Below are positions 49,539-53,681 of a stretch of 53,681 bases of DNA, piece by piece. The stretch is from Synergistaceae bacterium (GTDB lineage: Bacteria; Synergistota; Synergistia; Synergistales; Aminobacteriaceae): NCBI GenBank assembly GCA_031280275.1, contig JAITGX010000040.1, forward strand, positions 1 to 53,681. The letters run 5' to 3'. Numbering within the stretch: the stretch's first letter is position 1; every line of letters begins with the position of its first letter. Both the position numbers and the translations under genes were made by a program. Below the pieces are notes generated by a model that was given only the letters and a program-made list of their open reading frames with translations, searched no databases and was not told where the DNA came from.

Positions 49539-49880
49539 CTAAAACTTATCTTTAGAAGAGCGTTCTTTTTTTACAAGGTTGACTGCCATATGCCTGAGGA
49601 GCGCCATATTCTCCGCGCTATGCCGCTTCCTGTTTCCAGCATAATCTTCTCGGAAATTTATATCCAGTACCCAATGCAAGCTGTTTTCAATTCCTCAATA
49701 CGCCCGGATAGCTTTTCCTATACCCTCTGCATCCGCCTCAAGACTGCTTTCGTATACGGTATGCGGCATATTTTTAAATCCGTCCTTTTCTTCGCACGAA
49801 AAAAGCAGCTTCACCGCTTCAAATGTATTTCCCTGGTTTCCTTTCAAACCTAAAACATAGTCGGCATTGGCGTTTACAAT
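49539..49880 (-). pseudogene. ISAs1-family transposase C-terminal relic with internal stop
   Basis: minus-strand translation IVNANADYVLGLKGNQGNTFEAVKLLFSCEEKDG...AIRAY*GIENSLHWVLDINFREDYAGNRKRHSAENMALLRHMAVNLVKKERSSKDKF*. Confidence 0.85.
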
Positions 49881-50506
49881 CCAATATCAACAACTTAAGT
49901 ATTTATGCGTGGGATTTTCTGTTGTAATGATACTTAGTCTTTCCCGAAGTAAGCGGTCTTTCCACAGAACGTCCCGGCCGTATGGGCACGACGGATTTTT
50001 CAATCTCAATGGTAATAATATCCAAAGCACGAAGACGCTCCTCTGTTGAGGTCAAAAAACAGGCTGCCGCTGGATGATCCCGAAGTGCCGCGATAATCTG
50101 GTTTAAATTGGCAGCGTACTCGTATTTGTTATCTTTGCCGGCGCGTTTCTTCTGCATGACCCGGAACATTTTTTCGAATGGAGAATGGTCGAAATGGCCG
50201 CGAGCCTTGCTCAAAGCCTGCTGTTCATCCTCGCGCTTTTTTCCTGCTGCGAAAGTTGAGATGTATAATGAGACTCAAGAGAGGCGCTTTAGAACATCAA
50301 AGCGAGGCTGTCTGGGGTATCCCCCCGAAAGGGGGTGATTGAATAAGGCGTCCAACGATAATTAAACTTGCACGAGAGTTGACTAATCTCGTGCGAGCCC
50401 TGGCGGAACCTCTCCGCGTTGCGGTTGTGTTGGAACTGCTCCAATTCCTTCGCTAAGGGCGTAAGTCCGAGGTGAGGGTAACAGCCCCGCCATCGCTCTA
50501 CCCGAT

Positions 50507-50785
50507 ATGCCGAAACTGCTTGAAGCGTTTGGCGGAACCGGGCGCAACGCCGACGCGCCAACCGCAAGAACTTTGATACTCTGCGACGTTTTGCGGGTCA
50601 AGAGCAAATGGAACTGCGATGTGGATAACGCTTTAGGTACCGACAGTCTGGTAAAGCTGGATAACGGAACGATGGTGCGCGTTGTGAAGTTTAAATTGCC
50701 GGGAGGCAAGATGGAGACCCTCATCACCGATCTGTTCGAGTTGCCGGAGGAGTGTTTTCCAAAGCTGTATTTTCTATTTGTCTGA
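50507..50785 (+). pseudogene. IS4-like transposase fragment
   Basis: LILCDVLRVKSKWNCDVDNALGTDSLVKLDNGTMVRVVKFKLPGGKMETLITDLFELPEECFPKLYFL, ends before the expected downstream motif. Confidence 0.6.
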
Positions 50786-50812
50786 ATATTTTTAGGGCGA
50801 ACTTCCTCTTCA

Positions 50813-50841: not shown

Positions 50842-51672
50842 CTACCCGAGGCGCTCTTTTGTTGAAAGATTGCATTCCCTGATGTTGTCGGCGATGAAAT
50901 TTCTCCTCAGGTCTTTTAGGTAAGGGATAGCCTCTCTTTGTTTTTTTACGTTTTCGAGGTTTATCTCCGCTGTTATAACGTCGTATTCAGAGCCAGCGCT
51001 TGCAATTAAATCGCCTCTGGGGTCTACTATTCTGCTGTTGGCCGCGAACACCGTATCAGTTTTCTCGGTTCCTGACCGATTGCAGGCCACCACGTAGATG
51101 CCGTTTTCAACTGCCCTGGCTCTGGACAAAAGGTCCCAGGCGTACAGCCTAGGCATTCCAAAAGCCGAGGGGCACGCTATCACCTCAGCACCGCGCAGAG
51201 CAAGCACCCTGGCGCCTTCAGGGAAACCTATCTCGTAGCATATCTGCAATCCCAGTCTGCAAACACCTATATCGAAAACGGCGTAGCCGTCTCCATACGA
51301 AAAGCGATCTTTTTCACCCGCCCACAGGAAATTTTTTCTGTACGTCCCCACTAGCCCGTCCGGTCCCGTCAAAAACGCCGTGTCATAAAGAACACCGTTG
51401 GCCGACTCAATTACCGTACCCGTTGCAAATATCCCCTTATCCCGGCAAAGCGAAGCCATTTTCTCGGTTGTGGGGCCGGGTATGGGGGACGCCAGTTCAC
51501 TGTCCTTCTCCTCAACCCTATATCCTGTGTCAAAAAGTTCCGGCAGTACTACGAGCAACGCTCCTTTTTCCGCCGCAGCGACGGTCATATCCACCGCTAC
51601 GCCGAGGTTTTTGGCGACGTCAAACGGGGCGCAGTTCATCTGCACCGCAGCCACTTTAAATGATTCTGACAT
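50842..51672 (-). CDS. Carbon-nitrogen hydrolase (nitrilase superfamily)
   Basis: LLVVLPELFDTGY (Glu), YRKNFLW (Lys), GLQICYEIGFPE (Cys) catalytic triad context. Confidence 0.92.
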   Translation of the reverse strand: MSESFKVAAVQMNCAPFDVAKNLGVAVDMTVAAAEKGALLVVLPELFDTGYRVEEKDSELASPIPGPTTEKMASLCRDKGIFATGTVIESANGVLYDTAFLTGPDGLVGTYRKNFLWAGEKDRFSYGDGYAVFDIGVCRLGLQICYEIGFPEGARVLALRGAEVIACPSAFGMPRLYAWDLLSRARAVENGIYVVACNRSGTEKTDTVFAANSRIVDPRGDLIASAGSEYDVITAEINLENVKKQREAIPYLKDLRRNFIADNIRECNLSTKERLG

Positions 51673-51702: not shown

Positions 51703-51798
51703 TTAATACCATTTTTGGAGAAGGACTACGCTGACTACAACAGTAAAAGCACACCCGGCAACCCAAACAGCGAGCATCGGACTGGCAAACATTATCAT
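51703..51798 (-). CDS. 31-aa single-TM peptide MIMFASPMLAVWVAGCAFTVVVSVVLLQKWY (candidate symporter accessory subunit)
   Basis: GGGGAG-5 nt-ATG; hydrophobic; located between the symporter and the nitrilase gene on the same strand; absent from the ORF track. Confidence 0.65.
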   Translation of the reverse strand: MIMFASPMLAVWVAGCAFTVVVSVVLLQKWY

Positions 51799-51847
51799 TA
51801 TATCTCCCCTTTGCATAATCAAGCTATGTTTTCATCAAATGTTTTCC

Positions 51848-53314
51848 TCAAAAAGCGGTACTTTTTGCCGCCTTGCCGGCTGTTAGGCAGCCCACAAGAA
51901 ACATGACGATGAAACTTACGATTACCCCCCATGCTCCAGCGGCCATAACGCTCTTTTCAATACCGCTGATAATATAAACATACAAATAGAAACCAAGTCC
52001 GCAAAATGTCGCGCAAATAGCCGCTATAGCGCTCTTGAATCTTGGAAACAATATCGCAACCATCAAGGGCGCAAGCGTGGCGGACGCCACTCCGGAAATG
52101 CCTATCCAAACCATAACTCCCATAAATGCAGGAGGGTTGAGCACCAAGTACAGTGAAACGGCGACTATAAGGGTCGGGAAAATTCTTGTCAGAAGAAAAG
52201 CCACCCTGTCCGCTTTTTCTTCGCTCATTTTTAAAATTCCGCGTTTTACTAAAGTTTTTTTGAAAACATCCGTGGCTAGGCATGTCGTTATGACAATGGT
52301 AAGCCCGCAAGCTGTCGACATAAGTGCGGCTATAATCGCCACGGCAATTAATGTCGAAATTATAGGATGGAAAAGTTTGGAATATACGACTAAAGAGCTG
52401 TCTGGCACGGTAAGGGTTGGATCGATTGCGCGCATGTATATGCCGCCAAACATAACCAGCAGACAGCAAAACGCGGAGATCATCCAAGTAATAATCATTT
52501 TTTTCATATCTTTGGGATTTTTGAGCGCCATAATTTTATTGAGCAGCTGCGGTTGTCCCGCAAAGGCGAACTCGACGAACAACACCCCAAATACCGCAGC
52601 ATAAGAATACATATGCAGGGCATTTGGGTTGGTTACGGCAACAAAATTCGGATCTTGCGCCGCAATGATCATGGACACTTCCGTCAAGCCGCCCTGAAAA
52701 ATTACAAACCCCGAAAGAAAAACGAAAACGCCGCAGAACATCATGATAATCATCTGGCCAATGCTGGTGTAAACGTCGGCGAACAGCCCTCCCATAGTCA
52801 CATAAACAGCGGTGACAATGGCGACGGAGTATAATGCCGCCTTATATTCAACACCTTCTATCATGCCAGATATCACCGAAGCGCCCGCGGAAAACTGTCC
52901 CGCTATATAGAATATCTGGAGCAGAAATGCGATTGCTATAATGCAGCGCAGAGTATCGCTCTTGTAGGAAGTGGCTAACCAGTCGGCCATGGTATCAACC
53001 TTCAGGCTTTCCGTTCCTTCCCGCACGCCCTTTGCGATAATAATGAATCCCAGCGTAGACGCTCCAAATATGGCAAGAAAAATCCATAGGGCGGTCTGCC
53101 CCCAAGCGTACATATAGCCGACATATCCCTGAAATGTGGCCGCGCTGAAGAAAGAGGCGGAGAAGGCGAGTCCTAACGGAATCGGCCCCAAAGATTTACC
53201 GGCCAACGCAAAATCACTGGCGTCTTTTATCTTTTTAGCTCCAATAAAACCTACAAAAATGACAAAGAACAAATAAAGGCTGATGCCAATGATCATCCAT
53301 GTGTTTAACGACAT
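51848..53314 (-). CDS. Sodium:solute symporter (SSS) family protein
   Basis: start MSLNTWMIIGISLYLFFVIFVGFIGAKKIKDASDFALAGKSLGPIPLGLAFSASFFSAATFQGYVG; about 13 hydrophobic segments. Confidence 0.9.
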   Translation of the reverse strand: MSLNTWMIIGISLYLFFVIFVGFIGAKKIKDASDFALAGKSLGPIPLGLAFSASFFSAATFQGYVGYMYAWGQTALWIFLAIFGASTLGFIIIAKGVREGTESLKVDTMADWLATSYKSDTLRCIIAIAFLLQIFYIAGQFSAGASVISGMIEGVEYKAALYSVAIVTAVYVTMGGLFADVYTSIGQMIIMMFCGVFVFLSGFVIFQGGLTEVSMIIAAQDPNFVAVTNPNALHMYSYAAVFGVLFVEFAFAGQPQLLNKIMALKNPKDMKKMIITWMISAFCCLLVMFGGIYMRAIDPTLTVPDSSLVVYSKLFHPIISTLIAVAIIAALMSTACGLTIVITTCLATDVFKKTLVKRGILKMSEEKADRVAFLLTRIFPTLIVAVSLYLVLNPPAFMGVMVWIGISGVASATLAPLMVAILFPRFKSAIAAICATFCGLGFYLYVYIISGIEKSVMAAGAWGVIVSFIVMFLVGCLTAGKAAKSTAF

Positions 53315-53417: not shown

Positions 53418-53571
53418 CGGCATATCTGCAACCTGAGTCCGCAAAACCTGTATCGGAGACTGCTTAACCATCTCTATACGAGAAGCGGTTTACCTCCCTC
53501 CCAAAGAAATTTTTTAGTCACGGGCCAGGTACCAGGAACGCCAGTCCGCAGCCCTTCTATACCCTAAATCC
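53418..53571 (-). pseudogene. Eroded, internally deleted duplicate of the nitrilase-family gene
   Basis: CATATCTGCAACCTGAGTCCGCAAA...CTATACGAGAAGCG...AAGAAATTTTTT resembles 51237-51330; GGGCCAGGTACCAGGAACGCCAGTCCGCAGCCCTTCT resembles 51474-51511. Confidence 0.8.
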
Positions 53572-53638
53572 CCCAAAAATTATATGCTTATATCTATCAA
53601 ACATAGATTAAGCTCATATTTAGGGATAGACAAGACCC

Positions 53639-53681
53639 CCCTATAAGCATATAATAATTGGAATTTTATATGCTTATAGGG
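53639..53681. repeat. 16-bp inverted repeat, 11-bp spacer, at the window edge
   Basis: CCCTATAAGCATATAA - TAATTGGAATT - TTATATGCTTATAGGG; third half-site at 53580-53592. Confidence 0.85.

Follow-up and report, generated by a model that had tools for sequence, protein, structure and literature searches.

A single-helix peptide gene beside one clade of SSS-family sodium symporters: a candidate accessory subunit

A 31-residue peptide with one transmembrane (TM) helix is encoded in a 53,681-nucleotide contig of a Synergistaceae bacterium (the whole stretch analysed, hereafter the window), and its gene is linked exclusively, one-to-one, with a single clade of sodium:solute symporters of the SSS family. 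Homology to the peptide is found next to all eight close homologues of the window symporter, under strong purifying selection, and the frame is thus a genuine gene far beyond what chance would allow. The encoded membrane protein of 29–31 residues is probably a dedicated accessory subunit of the adjacent symporter, itself likely to be an amide importer. That the peptide could be such a subunit had been suggested in an earlier note made from the letters of the window; among the readings considered here it is the best supported, and from the conservation of the peptide and its restriction to one kind of symporter we infer both an association with the carrier and an effect on transport.

A short conserved gene between a symporter and a hydrolase

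The open reading frame (ORF) lies on the minus strand at positions 51703–51798, with its ATG at 51798–51796 and a TAA stop at 51705–51703, and its product is MIMFASPMLAVWVAGCAFTVVVSVVLLQKWY. The ribosome-binding site (RBS) claimed in the earlier note, GGGGAG with a 5-nt spacer before the ATG, was found at 51804–51809 on the same strand, and AGGAGG/GGAGG-type sites occupy the corresponding place in most homologous loci. The place where most homologues begin fits a second in-frame ATG (M3, 51792) just as well, and the product is therefore 29 or 31 residues long. The neighbours are as described earlier, an SSS symporter and a nitrilase-family hydrolase, all three genes being on the minus strand. 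The symporter (51848–53314, 488 aa), the presumed partner of the peptide, ends 49 nt before the ORF and scores above the gathering threshold of Pfam PF00474 (E = 1.6e-32, 113 bits, cut-off 22.8). The hydrolase, a nitrilase-superfamily amidohydrolase of 276 aa (50842–51672; PF00795, E = 1.5e-58), starts 30 nt after it. The ORF is shorter than gene-caller length. Scans of the window peptide and its homologues against Pfam and NCBIfam returned no match, nor did an Rfam scan of the neighbourhood. Kyte-Doolittle maxima of 2.2–2.7 over 17 residues in these peptides fit a single TM helix.

A single search with the symporter through 84,980 species genomes revealed eight close homologues (60–81% identity) in Synergistota and Firmicutes. 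Their hosts include a Synergistaceae MAG and, among Firmicutes, Succiniclasticum, Phascolarctobacterium, Lachnospiraceae and another Clostridia MAG. The search for the peptide downstream of related symporters, as the earlier note had advised, recovered a homologous peptide of 30–31 aa directly downstream in every case (8/8), at a distance of about 2–30 nt compared with 49 nt in the window. The consensus of the family is MLWxSPMLTVW...LTVVISYILLKKWY, and 9 of the 30 aligned positions are invariant (M8, L9, W12, T19, S23, L27, K29, W30 and Y31 in window numbering). A neutral dN/dS had been named beforehand as speaking against the proposal; instead, pN/pS among the homologues ranges from 0 to 0.46 with synonymous sites near saturation, and the peptides of loci L007 and L008 are separated by 10 synonymous and 0 nonsynonymous differences.

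Linkage of the peptide to one symporter clade and its relatives

Both flanks were read for all 49 SSS genes in ten genomes. The peptide was present beside 9/9 orthologues of the window symporter and beside 0/40 of the other SSS genes, and a profile search indicated a single convincing copy in each genome. A close symporter orthologue occurs in just two of 188 Synergistota genomes, and these two alone also contain a full-length peptide match; among 399 genomes of the phylum to which genome G192 belongs, such a match occurs in G192 only. A maximum-likelihood tree unites the nine symporters in a single clade (100/100), in which the two Synergistota sequences form a group nested among those of Firmicutes. 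This placement suggests that symporter and peptide may have been transferred together between phyla, the rooting of the tree being uncertain. Outside this SSS branch, only 2 of 39 SSS genes (L050, weak; L065) have next to them a comparable hydrophobic ORF of up to 50 aa led by an RBS. In L065 the ORF has 31 aa (MFGFPWDTSLFLWIIPLGLAIAQLIYVLLKN) and an AGGAGG RBS; some 100 nt further downstream begins the SSS gene, a third and distant one whose frame is broken in two. A C-terminal fusion (Rosetta stone) was also considered and rejected, the sole long-frame match checked (L044) being a chance match to a polysaccharide flippase-like protein.

The linkage, conservation and specificity of the peptide would fit equally well a post-translational regulator, one that inhibits the carrier or controls its turnover by a membrane protease, in the manner of MgtS, MgtR and MgtU for Mg transporters. 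Bacterial transporters are indeed controlled in this way by single-helix proteins of similar length (PMC10710835). A regulator is nonetheless rather unlikely here: the peptide is encoded in an operon-like unit, 2–49 nt from the symporter and with its own RBS, and no separate minus-strand promoter stands out next to the ORF. Being part of a shared unit, the peptide should always be produced together with the symporter, as would be expected of a subunit more than of a switch.

The 31-aa peptide is similar in length and hydrophobicity to small type I toxins, and an independent toxin-like or general membrane stress peptide might stand beside a symporter by chance. This explanation is very improbable, since each genome holds one convincing copy, always next to the same symporter clade and never next to the 40 other SSS genes, and a free-standing peptide would hardly track one transporter across phyla.

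Relatives of the pair extend beyond the close homologues. The sister symporter L054, of about 30% identity and from another Synergistota family, is accompanied by a homologous 27-aa peptide, MLTVWAVGSVVSWVLLYVVLKMMFKND, with a GGGGAGG-type RBS. Comparison of this peptide with the profile of the family described above (here the KWY family) gave a probability of 95.5% and E = 1.4e-8. It lies upstream of its symporter rather than downstream, indicating that the linkage survived a change of position. In two plasmids of the haloarchaeon Natribaculum, a symporter of 37% identity is directly followed by GGAGG and MTTLMLWIALIGTTLSLATMYAMLRVWYEPK..., a peptide that runs to LRVWY and then a short tail. 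As these records hardly differ in this region, they were counted as one observation. They were found with the symporter as the query in plasmid records, in which tblastn with the peptide gave chance matches only. A haloarchaeal plasmid row was left out of one alignment.

Short one-helix ORFs also lie just upstream of the more distant Firmicutes symporters L097–L100 (e.g., MTVLGVVGITSLLYLAVTALWVYWLEEHLEERD...). The peptides of L098–L100 are conserved among themselves (MTVLGVV.ITS..YLA...WVYWLE(D/E)...) and have no Pfam or NCBIfam match. No sequence homology was found between these three and the KWY family, so that homology of the peptides across the wider group would be conjectural. The main exception to the linkage is L096 (genome G537), a fairly close symporter without a small peptide ORF in the available flanking sequence, whose genome also lacks any KWY match; this symporter adjoins a sigma-54-type regulator. 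It is conceivable, if somewhat short of an even chance, that the whole SSS branch in bacteria and haloarchaea consists of obligate two-protein carriers, each with an adjacent one-helix subunit of 27–45 residues. Such carriers would form a prokaryotic counterpart of SGLT2–MAP17 that annotation has overlooked owing to the shortness of the subunit genes.

Gene neighbourhood and predicted substrate

A nitrilase homologue adjoins the symporter in L006–L010, upstream and on the same strand, while an asparaginase gene is found beside it in L012 and L013 and an amidase in L011. The earlier note had proposed a symporter–peptide–hydrolase operon. This order is indeed that of the window, but it is not fixed: hydrolase–symporter–peptide is the order in most relatives, and the constant link of the peptide is to the symporter. 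Remnants of a second, decayed nitrilase gene, interrupted by stops, lie at 53420–53571 on the minus strand of the window. Blastn aligned them to the intact copy with 77% identity over 100 nt (E = 1e-16) and 72% over 53 nt, and they were seen among the repeats as well. They sit upstream of the symporter, where L006–L010 keep an intact gene, as if an ancestral hydrolase–symporter–peptide order had been rearranged in the window.

Nitrilase, asparaginase and amidase families all cut C–N bonds, mostly of amides. Judged from these amide-cleaving partner genes, the best guess is that the symporter probably imports an amide-containing nutrient, which is then cleaved by the co-encoded hydrolase.

In L007, L008, L009 and L013, the genes for a response regulator of LytTR type and for a membrane protein resembling sensor kinases lie upstream on the opposite strand, divergent from the nitrilase–symporter–peptide cluster, of which they are perhaps the regulators; the contig of L010 holds only part of the sensor kinase-like gene. 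At the contig end, window positions 53573–53681 contain two overlapping inverted repeats of the TTATATGCTTATAGGG type with arms of 16–20 nt, possibly the end of a mobile element. Positions 49540–50800 hold short broken ORFs only, and the pieces tried gave no Pfam or Rfam match; this region looks like decayed mobile-element sequence.

The ORF of the window fills the gap between symporter and hydrolase, and the peptide gene is likewise followed by one for an amidase or asparaginase in L011 and L013. From this arrangement, the ORF could be taken to serve the hydrolase gene after it, as a leader or through translational coupling, the peptide product itself being unimportant. Such a role is highly improbable, as the peptide is the last gene in L007, L008, L010 and L012, where terminator-like hairpins, the contig end or opposite-strand genes follow. 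Moreover, the conservation sits in the amino-acid sequence, and the L054 peptide is encoded ahead of its symporter. A spurious ORF, which the lack of a Pfam or NCBIfam match and a length below that of gene callers might suggest, is ruled out by amino-acid conservation across phyla, saturated synonymous sites and conservation of position in 8/8 loci.

Known small subunits and the proposed role of the peptide

The statement of the earlier note that small accessory subunits are known for some NSS and SSS transporters holds for NF045580 by its name, for MetS, for MAP17 and for DUF997 proteins beside SSS genes. The window peptide (31 aa) is almost equal in length to NF045580 symport_access (33 positions), which we take to be, as named, a family of small accessory proteins of symporters, and it is likewise encoded next to a symporter. 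At the curated cut-off of 35 bits, this model matches neither the window peptide nor its homologues, and nothing was found in the window's own genome at E ≤ 10. Across 188 Synergistota genomes nothing exceeded the cut-off, and two sub-threshold matches fell inside a large multi-TM protein. Membership of this family was therefore rejected, the model not matching the peptide family.

MetS is the small membrane subunit of MetPS, the NSS-family methionine/alanine importer of Corynebacterium glutamicum, and is needed for transport. Like the window peptide, it is a small membrane protein encoded beside a LeuT-fold sodium symporter, but its partner is an NSS carrier whereas that of the peptide belongs to SSS (PF00474). 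Small-subunit models in Pfam and NCBIfam, including those of the MetS/NSS type, gave no match to the peptide, and no open literature on MetPS or on small subunits of bacterial SSS carriers was found.

MAP17 (PDZK1IP1) is eukaryotic, longer than the peptide and not encoded beside its carrier. The likeness lies in its being the one-helix partner of an SSS-superfamily carrier, as human SGLT2 (SLC5) belongs to the same SSS family as the window symporter. The single TM helix of MAP17 packs onto TM13 of SGLT2 and stays attached to the fixed bundle domain, and the carrier depends on MAP17 to be robustly active or stable (PMC10803289). Comparison of the KWY peptide profile with PDB chains gave no match, and no sequence homology to MAP17 was seen.

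DUF997 proteins (PF06196, YhdT-type) are also small membrane proteins encoded just upstream of SSS genes, including one in the source genome (G000:C50). They differ in size, with about 80–88 aa against one helix of 30 aa, and accompany another SSS clade. PF06196 (about 77 positions) does not match the window peptide; the partner of another SSS gene in the source genome matches at 2e-19. An RBS-led small membrane ORF adjoins three of the other SSS genes of that genome, L051, L083 and L086: an 88-aa DUF997 protein, an 81-aa ORF downstream and an 85-aa ORF upstream, the latter two below the Pfam cut-off. KdpF, AcrZ and MgtS are single-helix proteins of about 30–50 aa that stabilise or tune a transporter (PMC3618439, PMC7267776, PMC10710835), but their partners come from unrelated families (P-type ATPase, RND pump and Pit).

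As an accessory subunit, the peptide would be produced from the same gene cluster as the symporter and inserted with its short uncharged N-terminus outside and its conserved charged and aromatic (Q/K/E)KWY terminus at the inner face of the membrane, an N-out/C-in topology predicted from the positive-inside rule. Its helix would most likely pack against one of the symporter's peripheral helices, and the symporter may depend on it to fold stably or to be fully active, as SGLT2 does on MAP17 and MetP on MetS. The amide nutrient brought in by the complex would then be cleaved by the co-encoded hydrolase of nitrilase, asparaginase or amidase type.

A structure model was calculated with AlphaFold (AF2) from the natural L010 symporter–peptide tandem, entered as a single chain with one TAA read through. 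The whole chain reached a mean pLDDT of 84 and a pTM of 0.83, with the symporter at about pLDDT 88. The peptide helix was modelled at low confidence (pLDDT 42–57), and its position supports no docking site. In Foldseek, the solved folds closest to the L010 symporter model were SiaT, NIS and SGLT2–MAP17 (TMq 0.72 for SGLT2), in line with the LeuT-type SSS fold.

The peptide family is new and has no Pfam or NCBIfam entry, while its kind, small accessory subunits of sodium symporters, is already known. It may span bacteria and archaea and switch sides of its partner gene, and it would be an addition to the curated families used by annotation pipelines. The amide-hydrolase neighbours provide a testable substrate prediction for a so far unassigned symporter clade that occurs in gut bacteria. 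If real, uncalled one-helix subunits would explain failed reconstitution of such symporters from the large gene alone. The pair would also offer a minimal natural system for studying the activation or stabilisation of an SSS carrier by one extra helix, a matter still debated for SGLT2–MAP17.
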